From positions 90,168 to 154,167 of IMG/VR virus record IMGVR_UViG_3300042514_001858: 64,000 bases of DNA; one strand, given 5' to 3'. The stretch is from a virus. The position numbers and the translations under genes were made by a program. Below, in pieces: positions 6,057 through 62,361 of this stretch. Under the pieces are notes generated by a model. That model was not told the origin of the DNA and searched no databases. It saw only the letters and a program-made list of their open reading frames with translations. Numbering within the stretch: the first letter of the stretch is position 1; every line of letters begins with the position of its first letter.

Positions 6057-6068
6057 TTAAATAATAAC
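6057..6068 (+). promoter_or_regulatory. Late-type promoter abutting the ATG at 6069
   Basis: TTAAATAATAAC sits directly before the ATG; TAAATA (6058-6063) is followed by exactly 5 nt. Predicted leaderless late start. Confidence 0.6.
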
Positions 6069-6305
6069 ATGAACCAACCTTTTGTCAACGATAAAAATGA
6101 AATCGCCAACATTTATCAACAAATGTTGAATGAGGACATGACTGCTGGGGGCGTGTATGGGGGGGATGTTGCTGGTCATGCTGGTATTGAAAACACCGAT
6201 TGGTTTGCTCCAGGAGATGCTAGGAATCCTTATGGGATGGGTGTCACCACCAGAAGAGGTAAATTGAAAAATAAAAAACGCAGGAAGAAAATTAAAAAGA
6301 ATTAA
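6069..6305 (+). CDS. Small basic protein with capsid-targeting-like leader
   Basis: A 78-residue protein of unknown function. The N-terminus has the motif EIANIYQQMLNED, shared in form by many proteins of this window; the LNE tripeptide fits the L/I-x-E cleavage rule of T4-type prohead protease. The middle is rich in glycine and aspartate, and the C-terminus is strongly basic (KLKNKKRRKKIKKN), as expected for a DNA-contacting internal head protein. It has a late-type promoter with 5-nt spacing and overlaps the end of the convergent methyltransferase by 14 nt. A G7 run lies at 6159-6165, unusual in this AT-rich sequence. Internal-head function is inferred. Confidence 0.6.
   Translation: MNQPFVNDKNEIANIYQQMLNEDMTAGGVYGGDVAGHAGIENTDWFAPGDARNPYGMGVTTRRGKLKNKKRRKKIKKN
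6159..6165 (+). repeat. G7 homopolymer in the 6069 gene
   Basis: Seven Gs in a run, in frame, in an AT-rich sequence. A G5 run lies just upstream at 6147-6151. Confidence 0.6.
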
Positions 6306-7218
6306 TTCTCTTTCTCGCTACTTCACAATATTCGGAATTTAAATCAAATCCAATATAATTCATACCTAATTGTTTGGCAACTGCTCCTGTTGTTCCTGAA
6401 CCCATGAAGAAGTCCAATACGATACCATTTTCAGGGCATCCACTCTTTAACATACGTTCTACCAATTCTTCAGGAAATGTGGCTGTGTGAACGGACTTGT
6501 TGGATTTGGTATTAATCTTCCACACTGCTCTCATGGAACGTCCTCCTCGCTTACGCATTGCGTCCAGAATCCTTCTCTTCGTATCACTTGGGTTCTGTGC
6601 CTTCTGAGACTCATAATCCTTTGTAGCCTCTCCTGTATACACTTCATCAGGATTGGAAGAATTGGCAAATGGTTCAATTTGTTGTTTGAAATAATACGAT
6701 TTGCTTTTCACGAACATGAATACTGATTCAAAATCAACCACAAAACGATCTGTGACGCTCTGGGGGAGGGCATTTCCTTTATGCCATACGATATTATTTC
6801 TCAAAATCCATCCTCTATTCTGCATCTCGATGGCAAAACGGAAAGGAATTAATGCCAATTGTTTTGGTTTTCTCCATCCTCCCAATTTCTCTTTGGGTTT
6901 TTCATTAAATTTGAATGATTCTTTTTGAAGCTCATCCTTATTTTTCCAAACACCTTTACCACTTCCAAGATAGGTATCCCCTAAGTTCACAAAAACAACA
7001 CCATCATCTCGTAGAACACGATAAACTTCATCGTAGTAATCACACAATCCATTGACAAACTCTTCAGGTGTCTCAGCCAATCCAAATTCATTTTCATCAT
7101 CTGTGTATTGACGAAGGTTGTAATAGGGAGGTGATGTCAGGCTGCAATGGATCGATTTGTCAGGCAATTCCTTCAATCCAGCCATTGCGTCAATGTTTTT
7201 GATGTAATTCACGTTCAT
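6292..7218 (-). CDS. DNA methyltransferase (N4-cytosine/N6-adenine, beta-type order)
   Basis: A 308-residue DNA methyltransferase. The catalytic motif IV, TSPPYYNL, is near residue 28, and the SAM-binding motif I, DFFMGSGTTGAVA, lies near residue 270. This order (catalytic first, SAM-binding last) is that of beta-class amino-methyltransferases, so it should methylate exocyclic adenine N6 or cytosine N4; the target sequence cannot be read from the protein. No restriction partner is next to it, so protection of phage DNA from host restriction is the likeliest role. It has a sigma70-like promoter rather than the late box, suggesting early expression. A second, different methyltransferase lies at 21087-21866. 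Confidence 0.9.
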   Translation of the reverse strand: MNVNYIKNIDAMAGLKELPDKSIHCSLTSPPYYNLRQYTDDENEFGLAETPEEFVNGLCDYYDEVYRVLRDDGVVFVNLGDTYLGSGKGVWKNKDELQKESFKFNEKPKEKLGGWRKPKQLALIPFRFAIEMQNRGWILRNNIVWHKGNALPQSVTDRFVVDFESVFMFVKSKSYYFKQQIEPFANSSNPDEVYTGEATKDYESQKAQNPSDTKRRILDAMRKRGGRSMRAVWKINTKSNKSVHTATFPEELVERMLKSGCPENGIVLDFFMGSGTTGAVAKQLGMNYIGFDLNSEYCEVARKRINSF

Positions 7219-7252
7219 GTTTGGACAGTAGCACAGATTTTTGGGATGTCAA
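7219..7252 (-). promoter_or_regulatory. Sigma70-like promoter for the methyltransferase
   Basis: Read leftward: TTGACA (7252-7247), 16-nt spacer, TACTGT (7230-7225), then 6 nt to the ATG at 7218. The mRNA would start at or very near the start codon. Confidence 0.45.
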
Positions 7253-7543
7253 ACGGATGTTTTTTAATTTTCTGGCGATTAAATTTAACTAAATTTCTTT
7301 ATTATATTGTACATCTATTCCCACCCCCCTCCCATTAATTATACTCGCTATATTCATTTGTCAATAGTCAATTTATTATTATAATTAATTATCTTATTAT
7401 TAGATATAGATTAGATATTAACTATGATTAAAGATAACTAAAGAAAGAAACAAAAGAAAAAAAATTAATTAAAATCAATCTTCTTATCATTATCTATTGA
7501 TTAAGATTAATGTACAATAAATATAATAAATCAGAATCAATTA
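7253..7543. other. AT-rich intergenic region between divergent genes
   Basis: About 290 nt with no supportable gene. It has a C-rich patch at 7320-7334 (CCCACCCCCCTCCC) followed by about 200 nt of nearly pure A/T with the 12-bp palindrome ATAATTAATTAT at 7381-7392 and several TTAATTA-like elements. It separates a leftward early-type gene from a rightward late-type run, so it is a regulatory region; an origin is possible but nothing proves it. Confidence 0.4.
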
Positions 7544-7556
7544 TAATTAAATATAA
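7544..7556 (+). promoter_or_regulatory. Late-type promoter before the ATG at 7557
   Basis: TAATTAAATATAA precedes the ATG; TAAATA is at 7548-7553 with only 3 nt to the start codon, shorter than the usual 5. Confidence 0.4.
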
Positions 7557-8033
7557 ATGCAAAAATCAGAAAGTCAACCCCAAAGCACATGGAAAAATTT
7601 CCCAACCGATACGGAAGGTGTCGTAGGATTTGTTTATCTCATTCGCAATGATCATCCAGAAGTCGTCAATACCGACAAACCTCAATATTACATTGGGCAG
7701 AAGAAGCTACTCAAGAAAGTAAAGCGCAAACCATTGAAAGGTAAGACGCGCAATAGAATTTCTTATGTGGACAACGATGTTGAAAAGTATTGGGGATCGT
7801 CCAAAGAATTGCTTGCTGACATTGAGAAATACGGTATTGAGCATTTTTCCAGAGAAGTGATAGAAGTCTGTCAATCAAAATTCCATATGTCATTCGCGGA
7901 AATGGATTGGCAGGTTAAATGTAAAGTATTATTTGATAAGAGATTCATGAACGGCATTATCAATGTCCGCTTAGGAGTCGTTCCCAAAAATTATGTTGAC
8001 ATCGAACGTGATCCTGTTACTCTCGAATTGTGA
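7557..8033 (+). CDS. GIY-YIG-like nuclease-domain protein
   Basis: A 158-residue protein with an early GFVYLIRN strand and YYIGQKK, the spacing of the GIY-YIG core, followed by WGSSKELLADIEKYG..HFSREVIE and a conserved glutamate in FAEMDWQ. This pattern (core, W-GSS, F-REIL-like, E) is common in phage GIY-YIG-like proteins of this size. No separate DNA-binding domain is visible, so it may be a free-standing nuclease or a repurposed domain. It begins the small rightward operon; its stop overlaps the GTG of the next gene (GTGA). Confidence 0.55.
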   Translation: MQKSESQPQSTWKNFPTDTEGVVGFVYLIRNDHPEVVNTDKPQYYIGQKKLLKKVKRKPLKGKTRNRISYVDNDVEKYWGSSKELLADIEKYGIEHFSREVIEVCQSKFHMSFAEMDWQVKCKVLFDKRFMNGIINVRLGVVPKNYVDIERDPVTLEL

Positions 8034-8527
8034 GTAGGATTTCATTTCAAAACAAACAGATCATCGATATTGATGAAGTGTTTAAGGAAACCAATGAACA
8101 TTTCTATTATTTGTTGGAAAATCTTGGATTGACAGCAACTTTCGATTTCTCTAAAAGAAATAACAAAAAGCTATACACCCATCAATTTATCAAGACATTC
8201 ACAGAATTTCTAAAATATCTCAACGGTGATTTTGTATTTTTCTCCAACACATTAACAAAGGATAAGTTCCGTAATCAGCTTTTGGCTAAAATCCACCGAA
8301 TTTTCAAAATTAATATCGTGGGAAAAAATTACACATTTGAGCAATTGGAAAGCTATCTTGAATGTAGACACGCTGAAGTAATTTCCGAATTTGAATCGGT
8401 TTTTCAAAATAGAAAAACACCTTCATTTCGAAAAATTTCTAAATATCTGGAAAAAGAAGGTCTGACTTTTCTCAATGAGCAATATTTTCAAGAAGTTCTT
8501 AATAAGATGACTATTTTGATTAAATAA
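8030..8527 (+). CDS. Hypothetical protein, GTG start
   Basis: A 165-residue protein that I do not recognise. It is mainly alpha-helical by eye, with aromatic-rich segments (EHFYYLLENLGL, FIKTFTEFLKYLNGDFVFF) and a basic middle. The start is GTG, overlapping the previous stop as GTGA; the same overlap is used at 14339, which supports it. There is no signal peptide or clear membrane segment. Its position upstream of several head-targeted candidates suggests a virion or assembly role, by context only. Confidence 0.55.
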   Translation: MSRISFQNKQIIDIDEVFKETNEHFYYLLENLGLTATFDFSKRNNKKLYTHQFIKTFTEFLKYLNGDFVFFSNTLTKDKFRNQLLAKIHRIFKINIVGKNYTFEQLESYLECRHAEVISEFESVFQNRKTPSFRKISKYLEKEGLTFLNEQYFQEVLNKMTILIK

Positions 8528-8531
8528 TGCT
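8519..8531 (+). promoter_or_regulatory. Late-type promoter abutting the ATG at 8532
   Basis: ATTAAATAATGCT; TAAATA at 8521-8526 and exactly 5 nt to the ATG. It overlaps the end of the upstream gene. Confidence 0.55.
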
Positions 8532-8996
8532 ATGAGTAAATTTTTGAAACTTATTGAAGAACATGATCCAGCTACTAAGCGTAGAATGGTTGATTCTTCC
8601 AAAGCTAAAAAAAGCAAATTTTTAGAAATTCTGGAACAATATGATCCAGCTAATGAACAAAAAAGAGAAGATGCTTTCAAAGCTAAAATGCTTTTACATG
8701 AAAAGAAAAGACGATTCAAAAAGAAAAAATACGCTGAAGAGGATGAATCTATCAATGCTACAACAGGTACGTATGAAGTCGATAAAGAAGTCGAAGGATT
8801 GGCAGGTAAAGCTTCTGGTGGTTTGAAAGGTCTTGCAGGTAAATTGTTTGGCACTTCTGCACAAAAAGCAAAATCAGCAGTGAAAGAAAGACAAAATCTT
8901 GCCAATCAAGCAGTTGATGCTTATAGAAAAGGTTCCGTAAGAATTAAAAAAGGATTACAATCAGTAAAACAAACCGCAACTGGAAGAACTTATTAA
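8532..8996 (+). CDS. Basic internal-head candidate with duplicated leader
   Basis: A 154-residue basic protein. The first ~50 residues are a tandem duplication: SKFLKLIEEHDPA followed by a related SKFLEILEQYDPA, each with an L/I-x-E site (LIE, ILE) of the kind cut by T4-type prohead protease, and each followed by a lysine-rich tail ending in FKAK or SKAK. The middle is basic (KKRRFKKKKY). The C-terminus is rich in Ala, Gly and Lys (AGKASGGLKGLAGKLFG), as in DNA-condensing proteins. Function is unknown; a packaged protein is inferred from the leader, charge and late-type promoter. Confidence 0.6.
   Translation: MSKFLKLIEEHDPATKRRMVDSSKAKKSKFLEILEQYDPANEQKREDAFKAKMLLHEKKRRFKKKKYAEEDESINATTGTYEVDKEVEGLAGKASGGLKGLAGKLFGTSAQKAKSAVKERQNLANQAVDAYRKGSVRIKKGLQSVKQTATGRTY
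8535..8689 (+). repeat. Tandem duplication of ~75 nt inside the 8532 gene
   Basis: Two adjacent, diverged copies encode the SKFL..IE..DPA leader unit. The nucleotide copies share GATCCAGCTA and the CAAAGCTAAA end, so this is a true intragenic duplication. Confidence 0.6.
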
Positions 8997-8997
8997 T

Positions 8998-9408
8998 ATG
9001 AAATCAAAAACATTACAATTAATTGAAAAATATGTTCGTCTTCTTGAACAAGACGAACAAGATCCCAATGCTGGTATGGAGCAAGCACCTCCTCAAGAAG
9101 GGCAACCAGCACCTGAAGCACCAGCGGAAGAAGCTAATCCTGTTCCTCTCACTTCCATAGCAGAAATTAATTACATTAAACATGTTGTGATGGCATTGCT
9201 ATACGCAACAACAACTAATGTATCGGAAGCAGATAAATCAAATCTGAAGGAACTTGAAGTTGCTTTACAGGATGATGATGAAGCTCAAGAATTGTTACAA
9301 CAGACTGGAAAGACTGGTAAAGAATTTTATGAAGAAGAAATCCTACCAATTATTATGGGAATCCAGAATGAAAAAGAAGAAGCACAGAATTTAAACTCAA
9401 TTAGCTAA
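8998..9408 (+). CDS. Acidic small protein, head-associated candidate
   Basis: A 136-residue acidic protein I cannot name. The N-terminus, KTLQLIEKYVRLLEQDEQD, is an amphipathic helix with two L/I-x-E sites (LIE, LLE), then a proline/alanine/glutamate linker (residues ~25-50) and a helical C-terminal part. The layout (targeting-like helix, disordered linker, small helical domain) fits a prohead core or internal head protein. It starts 1 nt after the preceding stop, with no promoter box, so it is probably co-transcribed with the 8532 gene. Confidence 0.55.
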   Translation: MKSKTLQLIEKYVRLLEQDEQDPNAGMEQAPPQEGQPAPEAPAEEANPVPLTSIAEINYIKHVVMALLYATTTNVSEADKSNLKELEVALQDDDEAQELLQQTGKTGKEFYEEEILPIIMGIQNEKEEAQNLNSIS

Positions 9409-9416
9409 ATAATATT
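9405..9416 (+). promoter_or_regulatory. Late-type promoter abutting the ATG at 9417
   Basis: CTAAATAATATT directly before ATG; TAAATA 9406-9411, 5-nt gap. It overlaps the stop codon of the preceding gene. Confidence 0.65.
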
Positions 9417-9878
9417 ATGAAATTCAAAGGTGAAGAAAATAAAGTGATTTGGGAATCTTTCCGTGGTAAAGTTATGAACGAAAGATTTGATGACGAGATG
9501 GATGATGACTTCGGTGATGCCATGGAGTATGATGGTTTCGGTGACGACGATGAATTCGGTGGTGATGATGACTTTGGAGATGATGACTTCGGTGACGAAG
9601 GTGATTTTGATCAACCTGAAGCACAAGGAATGGTCATGGAATTTGACCCAATTAGTCCTGTTGAGAAGCACGAAGTTAATGAAGTTCTTCTTTCAGAGTT
9701 GAAAAAACTCGCTGAATATGCTGATCGTTTGTATGAAATGAGAAACGATTGTGAATTTGAAGATTGGATGGTTTCAGCGATTACTATTTCTTCGACTTAT
9801 GTTTCCGATGTTTGGCATCGCCTTGATGCTAAAGCTGATTTTGCAAACACTGGATTTGAACAATCCGATGATTATTAA
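9417..9878 (+). CDS. Acidic-repeat protein with helical C-terminal domain
   Basis: A 153-residue protein. Residues ~25-65 are a low-complexity run of Asp, Gly and Phe (repeats of the form DDDFGD), strongly acidic. The C-terminal ~60 residues, with LLSELKKLAEYADRLYEM then FEDWMVSAITISSTYVSDV, form a helical domain that recurs in proteins of T4-like marine phages, where it is of unknown function. The acidic stretch could mimic DNA or bind a basic partner. The late-type promoter and its neighbours suggest a structural or assembly role. Confidence 0.6.
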   Translation: MKFKGEENKVIWESFRGKVMNERFDDEMDDDFGDAMEYDGFGDDDEFGGDDDFGDDDFGDEGDFDQPEAQGMVMEFDPISPVEKHEVNEVLLSELKKLAEYADRLYEMRNDCEFEDWMVSAITISSTYVSDVWHRLDAKADFANTGFEQSDDY

Positions 9879-9894
9879 TAATTTTGATAAATGA

Positions 9895-10353
9895 ATGACA
9901 AATTTCAAACAATTCTTTGTGGAGAAAAATATATTCGGTCTAATCGAAGATATTTTCGTTGATGGTATCGGAACTATTTCCTCTAAATTGGATACTGGTA
10001 ACGGTGCTTACAATGTTTTACATGGAGAAGATATTGAATTTGGAGAGGATAAAAAAACAGGCGAGAAGATAGTAAGATTTACAACCATCAATTCCATGAG
10101 ATTAGAAAAACCTACAGAAGACACAATTATAATTAATATCGGAGAAGGAAATACTATTGAAAGACCTGTGTGTCTTTTTGATTGTGTTATAGGAGGTAAA
10201 AAATTTAAAAGTATCCCCTTTTCTATTAGTAATCGATCTACTAATGACCACAAGGTTTTAATCGGAAAAGATTTTATCAAAAATGAATTGGATGCCCTGA
10301 TCGATGTAGCATTAAACAATGTAGCAGACAAAAAATTATCAGTCGATGTATAA
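9895..10353 (+). CDS. Retropepsin-like aspartic protease with capsid-targeting-like leader
   Basis: A 152-residue protein. SSKLDTGNGAYNVLHG carries the aspartic-protease DTG triad near residue 40. The later segment (RPVCLFDCVIGG, then FSISNR, then VLIGKDFI) matches the RimK-linked, single-domain retropepsin family, which works as a dimer. The N-terminus, MTNFKQFFVEKN, looks like the leader of other head candidates here. Together these suggest a protease packaged in or acting on the head, but no catalytic activity can be shown from sequence. Its stop overlaps the next gene by 8 nt. No canonical late box precedes it, so it is probably expressed from 9405. Confidence 0.6.
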   Translation: MTNFKQFFVEKNIFGLIEDIFVDGIGTISSKLDTGNGAYNVLHGEDIEFGEDKKTGEKIVRFTTINSMRLEKPTEDTIIINIGEGNTIERPVCLFDCVIGGKKFKSIPFSISNRSTNDHKVLIGKDFIKNELDALIDVALNNVADKKLSVDV

Positions 10354-10900
10354 GTTATCACAAAGAGAATTATTGGAAGAGGGACTTTGGGACAAGTTTA
10401 AGGATTCCAAAGTTGGTAGAGGGCTTCGAAAAGTTGGTCAATTCGGGGCAGAAATTGCTAAAGTAGTTGCTCCAAATACTAGTTCTCAAGTTGGTTCTAT
10501 TGTTCAAAAATACAGAGACGCAAAACAAAATATTTCACAAGCTGGTAGAAAAATGGAAGATAGGGTTATCGAATTTTTAGATGGTTACAGTCTTATGCCT
10601 GATGATTCAGAAGTTAAAATGCTCAAAAGTTTTCCAAATGGTGATTCGCAGTGGAGAGTCAAAGTTGGAAAAAAAGACGTTGATCCAAATACAGGTGAAA
10701 GTAAAGTTGTTCAAAGATATAATTTTCCTATTGCTATAATCCTCCATGATAAAAAAAGCAATTCGTTTAAATTCCTAACAGAACCAGCACAAAGAAGAAC
10801 GGGTGCTGTTAATAATACTACGCCTCCACCATCTACTACGCCTCCACCATCTACTACGCCTCCACCATCTACTACGCCTCCACCAACTACTCGACCATAA
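10346..10900 (+). CDS. Head-associated candidate with C-terminal TTPPPS repeats
   Basis: A 184-residue protein of unknown function. The N-terminus has SQRELLEEGLWDKFKD, with an LLE site followed by a Gly/Lys-rich amphipathic region, a pattern often found at the start of small T4-like phage virion proteins. The middle (residues ~75-150) looks like a small beta domain with alternating charged strands. The C-terminus ends in four copies of TTPPPS, a rigid proline-rich tail encoded by near-identical 18-nt repeats. Overlaps the protease gene by 8 nt. Confidence 0.6.
   Translation: MYKLSQRELLEEGLWDKFKDSKVGRGLRKVGQFGAEIAKVVAPNTSSQVGSIVQKYRDAKQNISQAGRKMEDRVIEFLDGYSLMPDDSEVKMLKSFPNGDSQWRVKVGKKDVDPNTGESKVVQRYNFPIAIILHDKKSNSFKFLTEPAQRRTGAVNNTTPPPSTTPPPSTTPPPSTTPPPTTRP
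10817..10888 (+). repeat. Four tandem 18-nt repeats (TTPPPS codons)
   Basis: The unit ACTACGCCTCCACCATCT is repeated: three identical copies, then a fourth with ACT in place of TCT. Near-identity suggests recent expansion and likely length variation. Confidence 0.9.
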
Positions 10901-10904
10901 GGTA

Positions 10905-10936
10905 TTGACATCCACAAATTATTCATAAATATCACT
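10905..10936 (+). promoter_or_regulatory. Hybrid promoter: TTGACA plus TAAATA
   Basis: TTGACA (10905-10910), 15-nt spacer, TAAATA (10926-10931), 5 nt, ATG at 10937. It combines a sigma70-like -35 with the late box. Confidence 0.5.
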
Positions 10937-11116
10937 ATGAACGTAGAAATCGTAGTAAAAGAGGATGAGAATTTTAAAATTGTAGACGGTGTAGAAGAAG
11001 CACCGAAAGCTGTTGAGCAACCAATCAAAGTAGAAACACCACAAAAACCACAACCAACCTTGGAAAATCCAAAAGGTCATTCATGGTTTGATGGCACTTC
11101 TTGGGGGACAAAGTGA
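10937..11116 (+). CDS. Small hypothetical protein
   Basis: A 59-residue reading frame from ATG 10937 to TGA 11116, too short for many gene finders. It starts MNVEIVVKEDENFK, has an acidic/proline middle (VETPQKPQPTL) and ends GHSWFDGTSWGTK. A clean hybrid promoter with exact 5-nt spacing before the ATG is the main support. Function unknown; the Trp-containing tail suggests a small folded or peptide-binding end. Confidence 0.55.
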   Translation: MNVEIVVKEDENFKIVDGVEEAPKAVEQPIKVETPQKPQPTLENPKGHSWFDGTSWGTK

Positions 11117-11145
11117 TTGGTATTTATTGCTAAAATAAATGCGCA

Positions 11146-11886
11146 CTACACCTTGAGTACTTGCGTGATATGCTTCAATATCTGCGATCTCACAATATCA
11201 CTTATGTCAAATTTGACACATTGAATATCGTTTTTTACTGAGAAATCAGTATCAAATGCATCATACACGAAAGTGAACCCCGAATCATTGATATCTGCTT
11301 GAGCAGCATCCCCCAATACAAAGTATCGAGAATGTCTACCAAATCGTGTTAGGATAGTTGTTATCTCTCCCTTCGTCATATTTTGAGCTTCATCGATTAT
11401 CACAGCACAGCGATGGAAGGTAAGACCTCTTACAAAATTTACTGGTATTGCTTTAATATATTCGTTTTCCATCAAGTGAGTAATATCTGTTTTAGATAAA
11501 ATTTCATTTAATTTATCCAACATTGGCATAATATAAGGTAAGAATTTTTCATTCTCATCACCTTTAAGGAATCCAATTGAACGTGAAGAACTTTCCACCA
11601 CAGAACGAATGTAGATGATCTTATCAACATGCCCATTCTTCAAAAGCTCAAGGGCTGAAAATACAGCCAAATGCGTTTTTGCGCTTCCTGCTGGTCCGTT
11701 GACAAATACCATATTATTCTTCGGATGTTGCGACATATAATAAAATTTCTGTTGGTTATCAGTCATTGGATAATTATTTTTCAAATATAAATTTGATAAA
11801 TCAAACCCCTTTTTGATGTGTTCGGTATATTCCTCCGTCACATCCCGCTCTTTCCTCTTACGAGGAGGTGTCTTTTTTACTGACAT
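11146..11886 (-). CDS. phoH: PhoH-like P-loop ATPase
   Basis: A 246-residue PhoH family protein: NGPAGSAKTHLA is the P-loop near residue 63, and VIIDEAQNM is the Walker B near residue 160, followed by FVLGDAAQAD. PhoH-like proteins are common in T4-like and marine phages; a helicase/RNA-related role is proposed for some homologues but the phage function is unsettled. The N-terminal ~25 residues are basic and lysine/arginine rich. It is leftward and stands alone, with a TAAATA box 9 nt before the start. Confidence 0.88.
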   Translation of the reverse strand: MSVKKTPPRKRKERDVTEEYTEHIKKGFDLSNLYLKNNYPMTDNQQKFYYMSQHPKNNMVFVNGPAGSAKTHLAVFSALELLKNGHVDKIIYIRSVVESSSRSIGFLKGDENEKFLPYIMPMLDKLNEILSKTDITHLMENEYIKAIPVNFVRGLTFHRCAVIIDEAQNMTKGEITTILTRFGRHSRYFVLGDAAQADINDSGFTFVYDAFDTDFSVKNDIQCVKFDISDIVRSQILKHITQVLKV

Positions 11887-11902
11887 ATGTATTATTATTT
11901 AA
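11887..11902 (-). promoter_or_regulatory. Late-type box before phoH
   Basis: GTTAAATAATAAT on the minus strand; TAAATA (11901-11896) is 9 nt from the ATG, wider than the usual 5. Confidence 0.4.
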
Positions 11903-11948
11903 CAGAAAATCACTTGATTTTTGAGAATATGGTGGTAAATTAATTAAT

Positions 11949-12686
11949 ATGAAAATTGCATTCGCAGGGGCGCACAATACTGGAAAATCGACACTTATTA
12001 AGTCATTTTTACAAAAATGGCAAATGTATAAAACACCGTCGAAAACATACAGAGATATTATCAAAGAAAAAGATTTGAAACATTCTTCCAATACCACAGC
12101 CGAAACACAATTGCTTATTTTGGATTGGATGACAGAGACTTTAGAAGTTAATAAGGATGAGAAATATGTCGTCTATGATCGTTGTACTTTGGATAATTTG
12201 GCATATACTCTTCATGCTGCTGAGAAAGATTTGATATCGGAGGATGTTCTCGGAATTACTGTAGATATTGTTCGACGTTCTCTGAAAAATCTAGATATTA
12301 TTTTTTGGATTAAATACGATCCCACTATCAAAGTTGTAGCAGACGGATTACGGGATACTAATTTGAATTATATTCAAGAGATTGATGATATCTTTGCTGG
12401 TCTTTATGAACAATATTCAGATCAGCTTGAGAACACACCATTCTTCATTGCTGATGATATGCCAGCAATTATTCCCATTGAAAATATCCCGAATCTTGAT
12501 GATCGAATTGCTTGGATAGGAGAATTTATTGATCAAAAAGGCGAATTAATTGAAACACAGGACAGTATCCTCGATCCTAAAAATCTGGAGATGATGGAAC
12601 AAATGCTAAAAGATCAGAGTCAATGGACGGAAAAAGATAATGAATTCAAGAATATCACAAATCAAATTAAGAATTTTAAAATATGA
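11949..12686 (+). CDS. P-loop kinase, NadR/AAA_28-like
   Basis: A 245-residue P-loop protein. FAGAHNTGKSTL is the Walker A at residue 4-15, VVYDRCTLDNLAY resembles the DR(S/T) lid-side motif of nucleoside or NMN kinases, and a long helical C-terminus follows. AAA_28/NadR-type kinases phosphorylate ribosyl-nicotinamide or related small substrates; a deoxynucleotide or sugar-related substrate is equally possible here. Its stop overlaps the first glycosyltransferase start (ATGA), so it leads the glycan operon. Confidence 0.65.
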   Translation: MKIAFAGAHNTGKSTLIKSFLQKWQMYKTPSKTYRDIIKEKDLKHSSNTTAETQLLILDWMTETLEVNKDEKYVVYDRCTLDNLAYTLHAAEKDLISEDVLGITVDIVRRSLKNLDIIFWIKYDPTIKVVADGLRDTNLNYIQEIDDIFAGLYEQYSDQLENTPFFIADDMPAIIPIENIPNLDDRIAWIGEFIDQKGELIETQDSILDPKNLEMMEQMLKDQSQWTEKDNEFKNITNQIKNFKI

Positions 12687-13531
12687 GTGAAAAAATCGGA
12701 GTTGGTATTATCACATGTGGAAGAAAATCCATGTTTGAGAAGCTTTTCAATTCTCTTTTGGATTGTGGTGAACAAATTGATTATTTATATGTGGTTGAGG
12801 ATACTAAAACCAATCGCAGTTATGATGATAATTACGCTGTCGATATTGCAAGATCTTGGAAGGGTGAACACATCACAGTGTTCACCCCAACTGCAAATTT
12901 AGGTGTCGCCAAAGCTAAGAATAGCGCATTGGCGCATCTTCTTGATGCAGGATGTGATCATATCTTTCTGATTGAAGATGATATGTTTATTAAAAATCCA
13001 AACATCTTCCAAGCATATATCGACGCTTCTAAGAAAAGTGGTATTCAACATTTGATGTTTGGTTATCATGGACCAGCTAATAAAAATGGAATCTCTCGTG
13101 GTAAACCATATCCTCGATTGGTTGTTGATTATGGGGATTTCTCTCTCGCATTTAATCAGCATTGCGTTGGGGCATTTTGTTATTATTCCAGTAAGTGTCT
13201 AGAAGATGTCGGTCTAATCGATGAAAAATTTCGTAATGCTTTTGATCATGTTTCCCATAGTTATGAACTCGCTTTAAAGGGTTATTCCACTCCTTATTGG
13301 TGGTGGGCTGATCTGGCAAATTCTTTGGATTATATTGAAGAACAAGCGTGTTCAGAGGAAAATTCGTCCATCAAGACACCTGAATCCATGCAGAAATGGA
13401 GTGATAATATTCGAAGTTCCATGGAGTATTTCAAAGAGAAATTTGGCGTATTCCCGTTTGGGAATGATGGTGTCCTAGATACGAGAGAACAGGAAGTATT
13501 GACATTTTTGAAAAATACTATAAATCATTGA
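12683..13531 (+). CDS. Glycosyltransferase, GT2-type fold
   Basis: A 282-residue GT-A glycosyltransferase. GVGIITCGRKSMFEKLFNSLL is the usual N-terminal strand-helix, NLGVAKAKNSAL follows, and the metal-binding DxD is in FLIEDDMFI near residue 95. The C-terminal half (GAFCYYSSKCLEDVG, then FDHVSHSYELALKGY) looks like the acceptor-binding part of GT2 enzymes. First of a series of glycosyltransferases with 1-bp to about 13-bp overlaps or very short gaps, typical of a single operon. Confidence 0.8.
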   Translation: MSEKIGVGIITCGRKSMFEKLFNSLLDCGEQIDYLYVVEDTKTNRSYDDNYAVDIARSWKGEHITVFTPTANLGVAKAKNSALAHLLDAGCDHIFLIEDDMFIKNPNIFQAYIDASKKSGIQHLMFGYHGPANKNGISRGKPYPRLVVDYGDFSLAFNQHCVGAFCYYSSKCLEDVGLIDEKFRNAFDHVSHSYELALKGYSTPYWWWADLANSLDYIEEQACSEENSSIKTPESMQKWSDNIRSSMEYFKEKFGVFPFGNDGVLDTREQEVLTFLKNTINH

Positions 13532-13532
13532 A

Positions 13533-14342
13533 ATGAAATCCGACTTGAATAATATTGGCTTGATGATTCATTTCCGTAGGGACGTGGATGATCGATTTCG
13601 CAATCTAGAAATGGTTGTAAAATTCTATCGTGAAAATTCTGAAAATCTCCAAATCGCCATTCTGAATGATGATAAGGAATTGGATGGGGACTTCAAAAGA
13701 CTCTGTAAGCAATACGATTGTAAAGGTCTTTTTATGGTAAATCATGATGTTTATTGGAGAACCAAGGCATTCAATGAAATGTCTAAGATTCTGGAAGTTG
13801 ATTATCTGATTGCGGGAGATACTGATGTGATCGTTGATCCAAAATATATTCTGGAAGCGAAGCAATTGTTCGATGATAATGTGGGGATCGTGTATCCTTA
13901 CGATGGAATGTTCATTCATTTGAAGCAACCAATGTTTGAAAAATTCATCGCAGATCAATCCTTAGTTGATCTATTGGATAAATCTAAAGCACTTAAACCA
14001 ATCCCATACGATCAGGATGAGAATTTTCTCGTTGCACATCCCCAAAGCAAGGGAGGAATGGTTATGTTTAGTAAAAAAGCTTTTACCGAATGTAATGGGT
14101 ATAATCCAAATTTTAGAGGATGGGGTTATGAAGATGATGAGATCTTAGCTAGATTTCAAAAAATGGGATGGGGGATTTTGAGAGTTGGTAATAAAGAGGC
14201 AATAGCGTGGCATCTACCTCATGAAAATACAGTGAGAGAAAAACACCAATACTATGATAATAATCGGAAACACTCCGATTTCGTTTGTGGTAATACTAAG
14301 TGGGAAGATTTGGAAAAATATATTTGGAGTTGGACACTGTGA
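13533..14342 (+). CDS. Glycosyltransferase with GT7-like C-terminal signature
   Basis: A 269-residue GT-A enzyme. YLIAGDTDVIVDP carries the DxD. GGMVMFSKKAFTECNGYNP followed by FRGWGYEDDEILAR matches the WGxEDDE signature of beta-1,4-galactosyltransferase-type (GT7) domains, which contacts the acceptor and metal. The exact sugar is not readable from sequence. It overlaps the next gene through a GTGA start/stop. Confidence 0.75.
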   Translation: MKSDLNNIGLMIHFRRDVDDRFRNLEMVVKFYRENSENLQIAILNDDKELDGDFKRLCKQYDCKGLFMVNHDVYWRTKAFNEMSKILEVDYLIAGDTDVIVDPKYILEAKQLFDDNVGIVYPYDGMFIHLKQPMFEKFIADQSLVDLLDKSKALKPIPYDQDENFLVAHPQSKGGMVMFSKKAFTECNGYNPNFRGWGYEDDEILARFQKMGWGILRVGNKEAIAWHLPHENTVREKHQYYDNNRKHSDFVCGNTKWEDLEKYIWSWTL

Positions 14343-15037
14343 AACCTAGATTTTCCATATGTGTTCCCGTTTGGGAGCAGCACGGATTTGGTCTTCAGTA
14401 TTTGAAAGATCTGATCCATTCAATCCAAATCCAAACATTTCAGGATTGGGAGATTGTGATTTCTGATCATAGTAAAAATTTTGATATTTTTGATTTTTGT
14501 TTAGCGGAATCGGAGAAAGATTATATATTACGATATTTCAAATACGAGGAAAATTATGGTAATGGTGTTGCCAATCTCAACAATGCTCTGAAAAGAGCGG
14601 AAGGAGAAATCATCAAGATCATGTTTCAAGATGACTTCATGTTTGATCGTAGATGTTTGGAGAAATTCGATAAAGCATTCCAATGTGAAAATAATAAATG
14701 GGCTGTTTGTGGGTGTAATCATACGAGAGATGGTGTGAATTTTGATAGATTCATGGTTCCGTCTTGGAATGATAGATTGTTGGAAGGTGTGAATACAATT
14801 AGTTCTCCGTCCGTGCTATCTTTTAGAAATGAAAATATTGAATTGTTTGATGAGAACTTGACAATGCTCATGGATGTGGCATACTATTATCGAATGAATA
14901 AGCACCACGGATTACCCACGGTGATTGAAGACTGCTTGGTTACTAATCGGTGTCATGAGAATCAGATCAGTAGCAGGTATTCAGGAAATTTAGAAGACGA
15001 GATAAAATATTGTAAAGAAAAATATGATAGTAACTGA
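14339..15037 (+). CDS. Glycosyltransferase family 2
   Basis: A 232-residue GT2 enzyme. I place the start at the GTG at 14339, which overlaps the previous stop (GTGA) and gives MKPRFSICVPVWEQHG; a longer frame from 14300 would overlap the upstream gene by about 40 nt. NLNNALKRAEGEIIKIMFQDDFMF holds the DD metal-binding pair near residue 97. Its C-terminus overlaps the next gene by 14 nt. Confidence 0.78.
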   Translation: MKPRFSICVPVWEQHGFGLQYLKDLIHSIQIQTFQDWEIVISDHSKNFDIFDFCLAESEKDYILRYFKYEENYGNGVANLNNALKRAEGEIIKIMFQDDFMFDRRCLEKFDKAFQCENNKWAVCGCNHTRDGVNFDRFMVPSWNDRLLEGVNTISSPSVLSFRNENIELFDENLTMLMDVAYYYRMNKHHGLPTVIEDCLVTNRCHENQISSRYSGNLEDEIKYCKEKYDSN

Positions 15038-15920
15038 AATATACAATGGACAGGGATTAGGTAATCAACTTGCTTGTTACGTGACAACAAGAGTCGTTGC
15101 CAAAGATAAGGGATTTGATTTTGGGATTATGAATCCCCATAAATTTAAATGTTTGGATTTTATGGATTTAGATTTTGGATTACCCGTGATAGGTGGATAT
15201 TCAGAAAAAGAAGGCGATATACCCATTACTTTACCAGATGGTATTCAACATTCTTTCAAAGAAAGATGGTTGTATCTCTCAAATGGTTCCAATGTAACTA
15301 TCGATGATCCTAATTTAGAATTGATTCAAGATAACACACAAATTATCGGAATTTTTCAATCGGAAGATCGTATCATCCACCGCAAAGATGAAATTAGGCA
15401 GTGGTTGAAAATTAAACCAGAAAAGGATTGTTATGATTATTCTGATCCAAATATCTGCATCATTAATTATCGTGGCGGGGAATATGCAAGTGTTGCCGAT
15501 TTTCATTTGAATGGAAAGTATTGGGATGATGCGATTACCAGAATGAGACAAATTAACCCAAATTTTAGATTCGTTGTTATCACTGATGATGTAGAAAGAG
15601 CAAGCAGACAATTCCCTGATTTTGAAGTGAAACATTATGATATTGGAACAGATTTCACTATTATCAAGAATGCTCATTATTTGATTTTATCAAATTCCAG
15701 CTTCCCGTATTTTGCCACTTTACTAAGTGATACTGTAAAGTATATATTAGCTCCTAAATATTGGGGTCGCTATAATATATCAGATGGTTATTGGGCATGT
15801 GGCTACAACATTTTCAGGGATCATGTCTATATTGATAGGGAAGGAACATTGTTTGGATATGATGAATGTGTGGCAGAATTTGAAGAGTATAAGAAACGCG
15901 ACCCCAATTTTTGGAAATGA
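15024..15920 (+). CDS. GT11-like (alpha-1,2-fucosyltransferase-type) glycosyltransferase
   Basis: A 298-residue protein starting with IYNGQGLGNQLACY, the G-x-GNQ loop of GT11 fucosyltransferases. The donor-site segment is IINYRGGEY, in place of HxRRGD, so it is a diverged member. ILSNSSFPYFATLLSD resembles the conserved N-S-S-F-W motif. Together with the second GT11 at 20330 it suggests deoxyhexose addition; the acceptor is unknown. Confidence 0.65.
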   Translation: MIVTEIYNGQGLGNQLACYVTTRVVAKDKGFDFGIMNPHKFKCLDFMDLDFGLPVIGGYSEKEGDIPITLPDGIQHSFKERWLYLSNGSNVTIDDPNLELIQDNTQIIGIFQSEDRIIHRKDEIRQWLKIKPEKDCYDYSDPNICIINYRGGEYASVADFHLNGKYWDDAITRMRQINPNFRFVVITDDVERASRQFPDFEVKHYDIGTDFTIIKNAHYLILSNSSFPYFATLLSDTVKYILAPKYWGRYNISDGYWACGYNIFRDHVYIDREGTLFGYDECVAEFEEYKKRDPNFWK

Positions 15921-16708: not shown

Positions 16709-16709
16709 T

Positions 16710-17336: not shown

Positions 17337-17340
17337 AAAT

Positions 17341-54925: not shown

Positions 54926-55203
54926 GTCTTTGGTTTCAATCTTTTGTATTGATTGGTGCTTGTCTGATCCTGAAATACGGATCAATTCTAAATCCTATTC
55001 GAGATCGTTTGATTAAAATGAAATTCTTTGAGAAATTGTTTAAGTGTTGCATGTGTCTTGGATTTTGGGTGGGATGTTTCTTTGGAATGTTTTGGACAGG
55101 CACACCATTCTTGATTCCCCTATGGGGATTCTACGCATCTTCCATTTGTTGGTTTGCTGATTATTTCACCATGGTGATTGACAAATATTTGGGGAATGAT
55201 TAA
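54922..55203 (+). CDS. Small membrane protein (DUF1360-like CxxC motif)
   Basis: A 93-residue protein with three hydrophobic segments (residues ~4-22, 42-60, 62-80). KCCMCLGFWVGCFFG resembles the C-x-x-C-x-G-F-W motif of DUF1360-type phage membrane proteins. A membrane role, possibly holin-like, is conceivable, but location is the only other clue. Its stop codon (TAA, 55201-55203) is part of the next late-type box. Confidence 0.6.
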   Translation: MSLWFQSFVLIGACLILKYGSILNPIRDRLIKMKFFEKLFKCCMCLGFWVGCFFGMFWTGTPFLIPLWGFYASSICWFADYFTMVIDKYLGND

Positions 55204-55211
55204 ATAATAGA
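55199..55211 (+). promoter_or_regulatory. Late-type promoter abutting the ATG at 55212
   Basis: ATTAAATAATAGA; TAAATA 55201-55206, 5 nt to the ATG. It overlaps the stop codon of the preceding gene. Confidence 0.6.
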
Positions 55212-55826
55212 ATGCAGTCATTCTATAAATTTTTTTGGGAAGCATTCTCAGACATTGGTAAATTATCACCTGAACAATTAAAAATCAGTAGAAAACTAAC
55301 ACCTGAAGATTCTGGAAAATTTAAAAAAGTTGATTGGCGATCATTTTATAAAATCATCAATGCTTACATGGAATCAGATACTAAACGTGCTGACCCTGAA
55401 CACAAAGAACATGAATGGTTTAAAGATATTAAAAATAACATCACCATTTACAAACCAGAAGAATACGCAGAGATGGAATGTTTTATCGGACCAAACAATA
55501 CCAGCGGATATTGCATCAAAAAGGGTGATGAATTGGTTTCGGTTTTTTCTGGCATACAATCTTCGGGGGATGCGGCAGTAAAAAGTGCTATTAAAAATGG
55601 TGTTAGACGTTTAGATTGTTTTGCGGAACAAGATGGTGATGGTAATATCATACCAAAAAAATTATTCAAACTCTACAGTCGAAATGGTTTTGTTATTGAC
55701 AAAGATAAAAACGATGATACAATGCCTTATCCAGTGTTCAATGGTATTTCCTATGGTGTTGACGACGATGGCAACATCGACAGAAATTCCAAAACAGTGG
55801 TTGTTTACATGAAATTAGCACGATGA
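55212..55826 (+). CDS. Head-targeted candidate with GNAT-like C-terminal region
   Basis: A 204-residue protein. MQSFYKFFWEAFSDI is a targeting-like leader. The C-terminal half (GYCIKKGDELVSVFSG, AVKSAIKNGVRRLDCFAE, LFKLYSRNGFVIDKD) resembles the acetyl-CoA-binding N-acetyltransferase fold, with L-Y-x-x-x-G-F near the end as in GNAT enzymes; the lack of a clear Q/R-x-x-G-x-G/A loop makes this uncertain. Late-type promoter. Packaging is inferred. Confidence 0.5.
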   Translation: MQSFYKFFWEAFSDIGKLSPEQLKISRKLTPEDSGKFKKVDWRSFYKIINAYMESDTKRADPEHKEHEWFKDIKNNITIYKPEEYAEMECFIGPNNTSGYCIKKGDELVSVFSGIQSSGDAAVKSAIKNGVRRLDCFAEQDGDGNIIPKKLFKLYSRNGFVIDKDKNDDTMPYPVFNGISYGVDDDGNIDRNSKTVVVYMKLAR

Positions 55827-58517: not shown

Positions 58518-58528
58518 TAAATAATACT
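58517..58528 (+). promoter_or_regulatory. Late-type promoter abutting the ATG at 58529
   Basis: ATAAATAATACT; TAAATA 58518-58523, 5 nt to the ATG. Confidence 0.6.
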
Positions 58529-58753
58529 ATGAAAAAATTCCAAGATTTCTTTAATGACTACTTCAAGAAAGTTGAAAAAAAAGATCTTCCTAAACCAGAG
58601 GTTTCCAAAGGAGAAGAAGTAGAACAAGAACATATTGCTCCTTCCAAGAGAAAAACAAAGTTAGGAAAGAAGTTGGCGAAAACGATTGCTAAACAGCATG
58701 TGGAAGAAGATCCAAAATATTACTCCAAGATGGAGAAACAGCACAAAGATTAA
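58529..58753 (+). CDS. Small basic head-targeted candidate
   Basis: A 74-residue protein: MKKFQDFFNDYFKKVEK leader, a short acidic linker, then a basic stretch (KRKTKLGKKLAKTIAKQHV). Size and charge match small DNA-binding internal proteins. Late-type promoter with 5-nt gap. It is convergent with the 58763 gene. Confidence 0.6.
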   Translation: MKKFQDFFNDYFKKVEKKDLPKPEVSKGEEVEQEHIAPSKRKTKLGKKLAKTIAKQHVEEDPKYYSKMEKQHKD

Positions 58754-60193: not shown

Positions 60194-60663
60194 TATAATT
60201 CGTCCTGAATAGTAGTTAAATACTCCCCATCGATCTCTTCAACCATCTTAGATTCAACCACACTGTCAGGATTGATGATGATAATGGAAAGATTCTCATT
60301 TCTGATATCACCTTCTCCTGTATTTTTGTAGAAAGCAATATCATAATCACCCAAATCTTTTACATAATCATATCCATGATCTGTTCCATCATCAGGTAGT
60401 AACTTGGGATACACTTTATCAATTCTAATAGTTAATTCATAAAGATAATACTTGTCGAATCTCCCTTCGTCATTGATCATATAATCAGCACGAATCAGAG
60501 CTTGTTGCTTAGTTCCCGCATGAGAACCTGAAGTATAGTCGTTCTTATTGGGACGAGCCGAAGAACGATACACTTTAAGATAGTGAGTATTCGAGATATC
60601 TCGTAGCTTACTATTCGGAGATAGCTCTTGGATATCATAGAAAGATTCTAGAAAAGTTCTCAT
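60190..60663 (-). CDS. Hypothetical head-targeted candidate
   Basis: A 157-residue protein. I choose the ATG at 60663 over the one at 60735 because a TAAATA box lies 5 nt before it and the protein then starts MRTFLESFYDI, a targeting-like leader. YLKVYRSSARPN and SHAGTKQQALIRADYM (a H-x-G-T..QA..R pattern seen in several phage proteins) are the only distinctive parts; function unknown. Confidence 0.5.
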   Translation of the reverse strand: MRTFLESFYDIQELSPNSKLRDISNTHYLKVYRSSARPNKNDYTSGSHAGTKQQALIRADYMINDEGRFDKYYLYELTIRIDKVYPKLLPDDGTDHGYDYVKDLGDYDIAFYKNTGEGDIRNENLSIIIINPDSVVESKMVEEIDGEYLTTIQDELY

Positions 60664-60676
60664 AAAAATATTTAAT
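60664..60676 (-). promoter_or_regulatory. Late-type promoter deciding the start at 60663
   Basis: ATTAAATATTTTT; TAAATA (60674-60669), 5 nt to the ATG at 60663. Confidence 0.5.
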
Positions 60677-60750: not shown

Positions 60751-61395
60751 TTAAGCTCTTAGCTTGTGACCAATGAAATCGAACACTTCCATTTTATCAT
60801 CGTCTATTTCAGTATTAATCATTTCCTGTTTATTAACTCTTAAACCAACCATCTTATCAAATCCATAAGTTCTCCATTTCACATCAGTTTCAAATTTACC
60901 ACCTGAAGATGGATACATATATTGTTTGGCTTCTTCCTTATCAATTTCTTTTAAGTTTCCCTGATTATCTCGAATGACATAAAACGTTACGTTATTCTTA
61001 ATTAGATTAGAATTAAACATGATTAAAGATAATCCTCTCTTAGAAATCCCCACACTACGGGAGAGTCTTTCTCCTACAGTATTACTTGACTGTGCTTCAA
61101 AATCCCCTTCATCACCCCTTTTAGTTAATTGTCTATTAACTTCTTTTTGGTATTCCCCCAATTCTCCAATCGTTTGAGTGATTTTATATAATTGTTGGTG
61201 AGGGAATTGTTTTTCATATTTTCTTGGTGTGGTAACTGCGGTAAAGCTAAAAGGGATTGTGGTGTTTGGTTTCTCTTTATCTGCCTTAATTACAAAGTCC
61301 ATCATACCTTTAATATCCATAGGTATTGATCCTTCTGCAAAACCATATGCCATTTCCATGTAAATATTCTCCAATATGATACGATCTTTGTTCAT
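60751..61395 (-). CDS. Hypothetical head-targeted candidate
   Basis: A 214-residue protein. The ATG at 61395 is chosen: it has the TAAATA box 5 nt upstream, and gives a leader, NKDRIILENIYMEMAYG, like its neighbours. A longer frame to 61476 would have no promoter. The body has short conserved-looking stretches (FPHQQLYKITQTIGELGEYQKEV, WRTYGFDKMVGLRVN), unrecognised. Confidence 0.5.
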   Translation of the reverse strand: MNKDRIILENIYMEMAYGFAEGSIPMDIKGMMDFVIKADKEKPNTTIPFSFTAVTTPRKYEKQFPHQQLYKITQTIGELGEYQKEVNRQLTKRGDEGDFEAQSSNTVGERLSRSVGISKRGLSLIMFNSNLIKNNVTFYVIRDNQGNLKEIDKEEAKQYMYPSSGGKFETDVKWRTYGFDKMVGLRVNKQEMINTEIDDDKMEVFDFIGHKLRA

Positions 61396-61408
61396 GATAA
61401 TATTTAAT
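61396..61408 (-). promoter_or_regulatory. Late-type promoter deciding the start at 61395
   Basis: ATTAAATATTATC; TAAATA (61406-61401), 5 nt to the ATG at 61395. Confidence 0.55.
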
Positions 61409-61481
61409 ATAATAAAGTTAAATATTTCTTTTGAAAAAAATTTTTGAGGGGCAACCACCGAAACGATATATTCCAATTATG

Positions 61482-61494
61482 ATTAAATAATAGA
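61482..61494 (+). promoter_or_regulatory. Late-type promoter abutting the ATG at 61495
   Basis: ATTAAATAATAGA; TAAATA 61484-61489, 5 nt to the ATG. Confidence 0.6.
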
Positions 61495-62349
61495 ATGAAC
61501 CAAGACGAACTTTCCCTACAACAAATCTACCAAGAAATGGCTTTGACCAATCTACAAAAGATTGGAAAGTGGGAAGACAAAAAGAATCGTCATGGTTATG
61601 ATAAAGCATCAATTGGTATCCTATCTTCTCCCGCAGGACTGAAGAAATTGGAAAATACTTTCAATCGCATTGGTAATTGGGATTTTAATTTATATTTCGT
61701 AAAAAAAGCGGGAGCATGGAAAGAAGCAGAAAAAGGTCTAGTGACTCCCGAATTTGTAAAAGAACATCTGGGTCTGGAAGTAGGTAAAGATTTCCCCCAA
61801 CCAGAGAACGACCAAATCACAGTATTCTTCACCAATAATGCAGCAGCAGAAAAAGTCCCTCTGACTCCATGGACAATTGCCCATAGAATTGGACATAGCT
61901 TCGCAGCAACATTTAGGAGAAATAATGATTTAAATTATATTAATAGAAACATATCAAACATCCTAAAAAATCTTTTTGAACAAGCTTACAATATAAACAC
62001 AAGTAATTCCAGAGACTTACGCTATTCATCTGATTATTATGTAAGAGACTTCTTCCAAAAGATCGGTAAGTTCCGTAGCGCAAGAATGGGTAAGCTCGTA
62101 AGACCCGCAGAATTCTATCACGAAGCATTTGCCTATTGGTTACTACATGATGGAGAATTGACTTTCAATGACCCGCCAAAAATTCTACAAGACAGTAACA
62201 AACAAGCATGGGGTAAATCAACAGCACGTAATTACAGATTACAAGATGAAGATGAAGCTTGGGAATATATTAATCAATTCAAATGGGCTTTAGATGAAAT
62301 GTTCAATGTCATGATCGGTAAGCACATGGGAACAATGTCCATTATGTGA
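61495..62349 (+). CDS. Putative degenerate zincin-like protein, head-targeted candidate
   Basis: A 284-residue protein. NQDELSLQQIYQEMALTN is the leader. VPLTPWTIAHRIGHSFAATF contains H-x-x-x-H at the position of a zincin helix, but the catalytic Glu is replaced by Arg (HRIGH); FYHEAFAYWLLHDGELTF later could supply a third ligand (Glu). T-P-W-x-x-x-H-R-x-x-H segments recur in phage proteins of unknown role. It may be an inactive metallopeptidase or a binding domain. A real HEXXH protein follows it. Confidence 0.5.
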   Translation: MNQDELSLQQIYQEMALTNLQKIGKWEDKKNRHGYDKASIGILSSPAGLKKLENTFNRIGNWDFNLYFVKKAGAWKEAEKGLVTPEFVKEHLGLEVGKDFPQPENDQITVFFTNNAAAEKVPLTPWTIAHRIGHSFAATFRRNNDLNYINRNISNILKNLFEQAYNINTSNSRDLRYSSDYYVRDFFQKIGKFRSARMGKLVRPAEFYHEAFAYWLLHDGELTFNDPPKILQDSNKQAWGKSTARNYRLQDEDEAWEYINQFKWALDEMFNVMIGKHMGTMSIM

Positions 62350-62361
62350 TTAAATAATAGG
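62349..62361 (+). promoter_or_regulatory. Late-type promoter abutting the ATG at 62362
   Basis: ATTAAATAATAGG; TAAATA 62351-62356, 5 nt to the ATG. It abuts the stop codon of the preceding gene. Confidence 0.6.

Follow-up and report, generated by a model that had tools for sequence, protein, structure and literature searches.

Predicted promoters placed directly at start codons in a T4-type phage lineage, with probably leaderless late and, in many records, early messages

The late box and its distance to the start codon

The DNA analyzed here (the window, 64,000 nucleotides (nt) in length) comprises bases 90168-154167 of the 154,167-base IMG/VR record IMGVR_UViG_3300042514_001858, which as a whole is designated G000. 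The gene content of the window is T4-like, with homologues of gp46/gp47, UvsW and UvsY and with genes for the portal, the head protease, the head-tail adaptor, the tail sheath and nrdA/B, and the feature considered here is the hexamer TAAATA (the late box), which stands at a fixed distance ahead of the ATG of many of its genes. This distance, d, is the number of nt between the box and the ATG. The gp23 protein of the window is at most 33.3% identical to those of isolates (40 best-ranked of 2,494 matching phage records), and when five query proteins were compared with 49 kb of RM378 to assess the affinity to the Far-T4 phages, a match was obtained for gp18 alone.

A preliminary description of the window had listed 22 starts at which the box is followed by exactly 5 nt and ATG, and this arrangement is found at each of them. 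On the plus strand, the sites are located at 6058-6071 (start 6069), 8521-8534 (8532), 9406-9419 (9417), 10926-10939 (10937), 24835-24848 (24846; a gene with a weak GroES-like match, phrog_3188, E 3.4e-4), 30852-30865 (30863), 34134-34147 (34145; the head-tail adaptor gene), 40599-40612 (40610; the head maturation protease gp21), 41976-41989 (41987; the gene directly before gp23, in the scaffold position), 45016-45029 (45027), 45545-45558 (45556), 51348-51361 (51359), 55201-55214 (55212), 58518-58531 (58529), 61484-61497 (61495) and 62351-62364 (62362). The minus-strand sites are located at 33809-33822 (33811), 34114-34127 (34116), 52434-52447 (52436; the endolysin gene), 52847-52860 (52849; the tail assembly chaperone gene), 60661-60674 (60663) and 61393-61406 (61395). 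Among the 75 window genes with an ATG start, nine more have the box at 3-9 nt (one at d=3, one at d=4, three at d=6, three at d=7 and one at d=9), as had been estimated, and the single TAAGTA variant at 5 nt is present at 60181 (minus strand). Two TAAATA-N5-ATG sites were found beyond those listed, one at 41501-41514 (plus strand; start 41512), which is an in-frame internal start of the open reading frame (ORF) 41278-41949, and one at 45779 (minus strand), which belongs to an ORF of 36 amino acids (aa). TTGACA is also found 26-28 nt ahead of some late-box ATGs, as at 10937 (26 nt) and 55212 (28 nt).

The preliminary description had proposed a comparison of the box-ATG distances of the whole genome with those of shuffled upstream sequences, and in this comparison the peak at d=5 is far sharper than in the shuffles. 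With 1,000 dinucleotide shuffles of the upstream sequences, 45 of 185 ATG starts are at d=5 as compared with a mean of 0.46 and a maximum of 3, in a set in which some starts had been reassigned to a start codon behind a box; a gene call blind to the box still places 35 of 179 starts at d=5. When every ATG with an open frame of at least 50 aa on both strands is considered, without any gene call, 47 of the 232 TAAATA hexamers of the whole record form pairs at d=5, and any other distance from 0 to 40 has at most six, so that circularity of the gene call is ruled out as the cause of the peak. When the letters of the hexamer are permuted, a peak at d=5 is absent for all 14 other permutations, the strongest of which are AATAAT (35 at d=3) and ATAATA (30 at d=2), both overlapping the same TAAATAATA string. 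In nine large clade records, chosen by hand, the exact pattern TAAATAN5ATG occurs 29-54 times per whole record and its reversed control 0-5 times. The permutations, the shuffles and this control rule out chance or AT-richness as the origin of the spacing. The logo of the 47 sites reads [AG]Y-TAAATA-AT-A-W-Y-ATG, with no evident -35 element, and the base preceding the ATG is a pyrimidine in 41 of the 47 (T in 32, C in 9).

The spacing is preserved in the relatives, for which the best 80 of 235 IMG/VR stretches encoding a related gp23 were used. In these, d=5 is found for 390 box-ATG pairs, d=6 for 61 and d=7 for 48, and no other distance has more than 21; at least one pair at d=5 is present in 79 of the 80 loci, the exception being a fragment of 2.2 kb. 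When distinct scored ortholog upstreams are compared gene by gene, d=5 is kept in 27 of 37 for gp21 (40610), with 20 different spacer sequences, in 38 of 39 for the gene at 45027 and in 25 of 34 for the scaffold-position gene at 41987. Clearly, the length of the spacer is conserved while its letters change, across divergent orthologs of several genes. The internal start at 41512 keeps d=5 in 13 of 28 distinct scored ortholog upstreams, which suggests that a nested shorter protein may be made from within ORF 41278-41949.

Outside the clade, the forward and reversed counts of TAAATAN5ATG are 10/5 for T4, 3/3 for Syn9, 14/4 for HTVC008M, 11/3 for Mosig, 5/3 for Melnitz, 6/2 for P-HM2, 0/1 for RM378, 2/0 for SRB7757, 0/0 for P10VF, 7/5 for F341, 0/0 for V45v66 and 6/5 for S-SKS1. 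A scan of genome contigs for a host yielded only two distant gp23 relatives, both on contigs binned in gut metagenome-assembled genomes (L111 and L112; 239 kb and 376 kb), with the labels Lachnospiraceae (gp23 identity 49%) and Paludibacteraceae (45%). In the pieces of these contigs that were compared (about 20 kb each), the boxes are loosely spread, roughly 6-15 nt from the ATG, and the strict spacing rule may therefore be a property of the present clade.

In T4, the late box occupies positions -13 to -6, as given in the available text of a promoter study (PMC1524935). With 5 nt between the box and the ATG, the transcription start (+1) is therefore predicted to fall on the A of the ATG, in agreement with what the preliminary description had proposed from a T4 box ending at about -6. 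Among the distinct contexts of the G000 record and the relatives L006-L085 and L101-L110, d=5 accounts for 295, d=6 for 46 and d=7 for 38, as compared with only 26 for d=0-4 taken together, and this cliff in the counts lies exactly where ATGs would be upstream of +1. Bacterial transcription preferentially starts on a purine that follows a pyrimidine, and a pyrimidine is found at -1 in 277 of the 295 contexts at d=5. The pyrimidine-purine step at box+5/+6 persists when the ATG is displaced, being present in 22 of 46 contexts at d=6 and in 23 of 38 at d=7, as compared with 207 of 829 boxes without a nearby ATG. The start codon at box+6 (open frame of at least 60 aa) is ATG in 293 cases and GTG in 14, the latter number being equal to the AAA background of 14. 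The putative pyrimidine-purine initiator signature appears to track the promoter and not the ATG.

Gene classes, late factors and comparison with known systems

Of the 200 genes called in G000, 48 have a box at d=5, 16 have a box at another short distance, 13 have the early element described below and 123 have no recognized promoter; the latter are mostly in tight operons, with a median co-directional spacing of -1 nt. Box genes are more often in a divergent position (17 of 48, as compared with 14 of 123 promoter-less genes; Fisher p 0.0006) and less often tightly spaced behind a co-directional neighbor (11 of 31, as compared with 75 of 109; p 0.0014), which indicates that the late boxes mark the predicted starts of transcription units. 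An A-rich signal of the Bacteroidota type, general to the genes, was not found: only 64 of the 200 genes have the box, which is enriched at the starts of units, and the genes without a recognized promoter have a mild A bias only. Of the 47 genes with a box at d=5, 27 were scanned against PHROGs; seven of these have a clear function, 18 have none and two have weak matches only (GroES-like and baseplate). The seven are all virion or lysis genes, namely the head-tail adaptor, head protease, endolysin, tail chaperone and sheath, one tail protein and one head protein, and no TAAATA was found within 40 nt of nrdA/B, gp46, gp47, uvsW, uvsY, gp44 or a helicase gene. A run of about 13 ORFs of 200-310 aa and two shorter ones at 12683-23486, all on the plus strand, is without late boxes.

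The statement that the window encodes a gp55-like late sigma factor is borne out by an ORF of 146 aa at 3733-4173 (minus strand), which matches six gp55 proteins in phmmer at E 4.7e-13 to 2.7e-10, those of T4 (1.5e-12), P-HM2 (4.7e-13), Syn9, HTVC008M, Mosig and S-SKS1. A seventh sigma query, from phage P10VF, does not match this protein, and no Pfam domain is found in it at E 0.01. Its gene sits between the gp47-like and UvsW-like genes, the same neighborhood as in cyanophages, and a gp44-like clamp loader is present (E 2.4e-45). Shine-Dalgarno (SD) sequences are nearly absent, as had also been noted, with an SD-like motif in five of the 104 ORFs of at least 200 aa in G000, as compared with 24 of 32 long ORFs in the T4 late region and 47 of 80 in HTVC008M. 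A phage-encoded bS21 as a helper of SD-less translation was considered and dropped, as no match was obtained in 10 of 10 clade records, some of which are maybe fragments.

Late transcription of T4 is a textbook system, and T4 mRNAs carry SD leaders. Like the T4 late promoters (TATAAATA; dependent on gp55, gp33 and gp45), the present sites have a TAAATA core, a gp55 homologue encoded by the phage and virion and lysis genes downstream. In T4, however, 21 of the 26 boxes of a 49-kb late region with an ATG within 45 nt have this ATG at 12-35 nt, and 14 of these 21 have an SD-like motif between the box and the ATG. Whereas the T4 consensus has TA at -13/-12, the 47 sites of G000 have A/G at the predicted -13 in 42 and C/T at the predicted -12 in 35; T-13 is poorly conserved in other T4-likes as well, according to the available text of PMC1524935. 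The cultured, T4-like Pelagibacter phage HTVC008M also has 12 ORFs at d=5, the box often being TAAATAGT, but these form a minor peak only (12 of 186 boxes), and bS21 is annotated in this phage, whereas no match to it was obtained in the ten clade records. HTVC008M is a smaller case of the same spacing, convergent or ancestral.

In the literature, the accessible part of a study of the Thermus phage phiYS40 reports that most of its middle and late mRNAs are leaderless (PMC3594737). This phage is alike in having a temporal class of leaderless messages; it infects another host group, no gp55 box is mentioned in that part, and leaderlessness is reported there, whereas here it is predicted, including for early genes. 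Leaderless bacterial genes have TANNNT about 12 bp ahead of the start codon, as far as described in the available text of Zheng et al. 2011 (PMC3160421), which is the geometry of the early and sigma70-type classes considered below; the clade differs by the additional TTAAAAACTAG element and, for its late genes, by a phage sigma factor. In the accessible text on phage AR9, leaders of 26-491 nt are given and phage transcripts are called "often leaderless" by the authors (PMC5312081), and in that on Melnitz, late promoters are counted and leaderlessness occurs only in the title of a reference (PMC9004378). The available portions of two Far-T4 studies contain no promoter, sigma or leaderless (PMC4360716) and no promoter (PMC7198788). 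For T4-type phages, the literature search, for which most subscription journals were outside reach, yielded no account of leaderless mRNAs.

Predicted early and sigma70-type promoters

The early genes in the left arm of G000 start with TTAAAAACTAG-nn-[TC]AnnnT-N6-ATG. This predicted promoter, TTAAAAACTAGnn[TC]AnnnT, is located exactly 6 nt ahead of the ATG in five of ten records (10-79 sites, as compared with 0-1 in the control). Per whole record, AAAACTA-N15-ATG occurs 10 times in G000, 79 in G001, 42 in G002, 34 in G004 and 45 in G009, the reversed pattern 0-1 times in each, and AAAACTA-N16-ATG 0-2 times in every record. That the early element is common to every relative is not borne out, as it is far above the control in only these five of the ten records; G003 and G005-G008 may use another early element. 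For the logo, G000 and stretches of G001, G002 and G009 picked as rich in the element were used, in which 303 AAAACTA occur and 160 of them are followed, exactly 15 nt on, by an ATG-led frame of at least 30 aa (10 in G000, 37 in G002, 41 in G009 and 72 in G001). When 158 of these sites are aligned with the A of the ATG as +1, A-11 is present in 158 and T-7 in 156, position -12 holds T in 78 sites and C in 56, and all 158 have a pyrimidine at -1 (C in 137, T in 21). An additional 53 AAAACTA have the ATG exactly 18 nt on, mostly as ACC-ATG. Of these, 52 were aligned; although their ATG lies 3 nt downstream, a purine occupies the expected +1 position in 51 and a pyrimidine precedes it in 50. In T4-like early promoters, A-11 and T-7 are conserved and position -12 varies, as stated in the available text of PMC1524935, and the numbering of the early sites predicted here is that of a sigma70 -10 element.

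Ten early-element genes were scanned, and the matches obtained for some of them are to a DnaB/ATPase-like protein, a DNA-binding protein and a polynucleotide kinase. The early promoter lies on the minus strand of G000 bases 135-18000, and also in the early arms of G001, G002, G004 and G009. At the right end of the record (window 63920-63972), three copies of the early element are found on both strands, as if the contig enters an early arm, and the record is possibly circularly permuted.

A third type, TTGACA-N15-17-TANNNT, has the ATG at N6 in 21 cases in the relatives, the next of 16 distances having 10, and the base at -1 is a pyrimidine in 21 of 21. G000 itself has three such sites with ATG and one with GTG. 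In the window, TTGACA-N16-TACTGT-N6-ATG at 7216-7252 (minus strand; start 7218) precedes a DNA methyltransferase gene, with the expected +1 on the ATG, and TTGACA-N16-TAAATT-N6-ATG is located at 52865-52901 (plus strand; start 52899); TTGACA-N16-TACTCT-N6-GTG at 7996-8032 (plus strand; start 8030) has the same geometry but with GTG. Three promoter types, different in sequence and in spacing, agree on the predicted transcription start. The predicted rule is wider than the preliminary description had seen, as early genes appear to follow it in G000 and in four of nine relatives. Promoters of the TTGACA/TANNNT type presumably speak against a Bacteroidota host, judging from the features of Bacteroidota promoters. 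According to the available text of PMC7198788, a marine Far-T4-like genome is tied to Bacteroidetes, and the authors of the other Far-T4 study, in the part consulted, term their own host predictions spurious (PMC4360716). GIY-YIG homing endonuclease genes (phrog_314; Pfam SegE_GIY-YIG) are located at 28790-29539 (minus strand) and 7557-8030 (plus strand).

Alternative readings and the proposed mechanism

The major capsid gene gp23 is an exception, being preceded by a predicted structured leader, at 42873-42933 (plus strand), that is conserved in the ortholog alignment. No TAAATA lies within 25 nt of gp23 in 26 of 27 distinct scored upstreams, and the gap of about 60 nt ahead of it holds a conserved TTTCCACC..GCACYATGAGG-loop-CCTGAAY..AGAAA. 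In its hairpin, pair 72-87 is changed on both sides in 13 of 20 sequences and broken in none, and pair 73-86 is changed on both sides in nine and broken in three. Rfam 15 at gathering thresholds gives no match in the whole window, and the leader itself obtains only two, at E 7.5 and 9.3. Its AUGA-stem-UGAA arrangement resembles a kink-turn.

Very probably, this is a T4-type late transcription system in which the promoters are fused to the start codons, so that the late and, in many records, the early mRNAs would be leaderless or nearly so. This upholds the suggestion of the preliminary description that the uniform spacing points to leaderless late mRNAs, as the spacing is common to the relatives and coincides with the late start position of T4. 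The exception of gp23 weighs against this reading, as do several other observations. No ATG is present within 30 nt of 829 of 1358 distinct TAAATA, as is to be expected since the hexamer is AT-rich. The orthologs of the gene at 45556 vary between 5 and 10 nt (9 of 34 at d=5, eight at d=6 and 11 at d=7), and nine of the 34 scored upstreams of the gene at 41987 are without a box. The relatives share ancestry, and hence their counts are not independent. PhoH, which is not a virion gene, has a box too (d=9). Two of the late factors are not secure, gp45 having best phmmer E values of 0.023 and 0.028 with two different ORFs, and gp33 one of 0.078 with the annotated factor of HTVC008M. The early element is at or near the control in G003 (4/3, forward/reversed), G005 (4/0), G006 (4/4), G007 (5/1) and G008 (2/5), and with a loose gap of N10-24, G000 gives 15, which is not above the reversed control of 33; therefore, only the exact spacing carries the signal in G000.

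The preliminary description gave as an alternative that the AT-rich box is itself a translation signal. Such a signal would serve SD-independent initiation, as in Bacteroidota or cyanobacteria, with transcription starting further upstream. The near absence of SD sequences and the fixed distance of an AT-rich box to the ATG would fit such a role, but the predicted +1 is the same for three promoter-like sequences that are unrelated and differ in spacing, and the Y-1/R+1 step stays in place relative to the box when the ATG is displaced, so that a role as a translation signal is highly improbable. This is also in agreement with the location of the boxes at unit starts, as the 123 promoter-less genes need translation equally and yet have no box, and with the divergent ATGs at 34116 and 34145, which are separated by just 28 bp. 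The late start could also lie a few nt to either side of the base predicted here, which would give leaders of 1-5 nt, or be heterogeneous. The T4 start position is carried over by homology, and genes with d=6 and d=7 exist, some of which keep this distance, but the pyrimidine-purine signature falls on the A of the ATG in 277 of 295 contexts and the early class, which is placed independently by its canonical A-11 and T-7, agrees with the same base; starts displaced in this way are considered unlikely.

A further alternative is compatible with leaderlessness and differs on its cause. By neutral genome compaction, leaders would have shrunk once SD sequences were unneeded, and zero length would be an unselected lower limit. 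Compaction would be expected to give a steep rise at d=5 followed by a tail that decays over d=6-10, as is observed, and the loose spread in the 20-kb pieces of L111 and L112 also fits. The peak is nevertheless sharp (295, as compared with 46 and 38), the spacing is kept across divergent orthologs, and the early genes show an in-frame +3 class and no smooth tail, so that compaction is possible but somewhat doubtful as the explanation. On balance, we lean toward a leaderless program in which late promoters throughout, early promoters in five or more of the ten records and some sigma70-type promoters are fused to the start codon at +1, with gp23 given a structured leader.

In the mechanism proposed for this program, the gp55-homologue sigma factor on the host RNA polymerase would read [AG]Y-TAAATA-AT, and RNA synthesis would begin on the A of the ATG, 6 nt past the final A of the box, generating AUG-first mRNAs. 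The same fusion would hold for the early genes of G000 and several relatives, where the TTAAAAACTAG element is joined with a sigma70-like -10 element (-12 to -7), as well as for a small number of genes with TTGACA/TANNNT promoters. With this fusion in all three classes, the first genes of most transcription units would be translated from mRNAs that are leaderless or have a leader of 1-4 nt, and the downstream genes of the operons would rely on SD-independent internal initiation. The spacing, its conservation, the fixed initiator signature, the position at unit starts and the gp55 homologue are supported directly by the sequences. Leaderless transcription is strongly predicted from them, and from the same data, we infer the real 5' ends, the dependence on gp55 and leaderless translation. 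Not all genes are leaderless, considering the 123 of 200 without a recognized promoter, the leaders of 1-4 nt and the structured leader of gp23.

This lineage of uncultured phages is common, as its gp23 is encoded in 235 IMG/VR stretches, and in at least two temporal classes its promoters appear to have fused with the start codons, with loss of the leader. If true, this would set the clade apart from T4, in which the leaders of the messages contain ribosome-binding sites. It would provide many aligned natural examples of the promoter geometry for leaderless initiation, as well as a simple rule for locating the true gene starts in phages of this clade, and as HTVC008M is cultured and has such sites, though fewer of them, the idea is open to immediate testing in this phage. 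It is possible that the lineage depends on, or reprograms, leaderless initiation by the ribosomes of its host.

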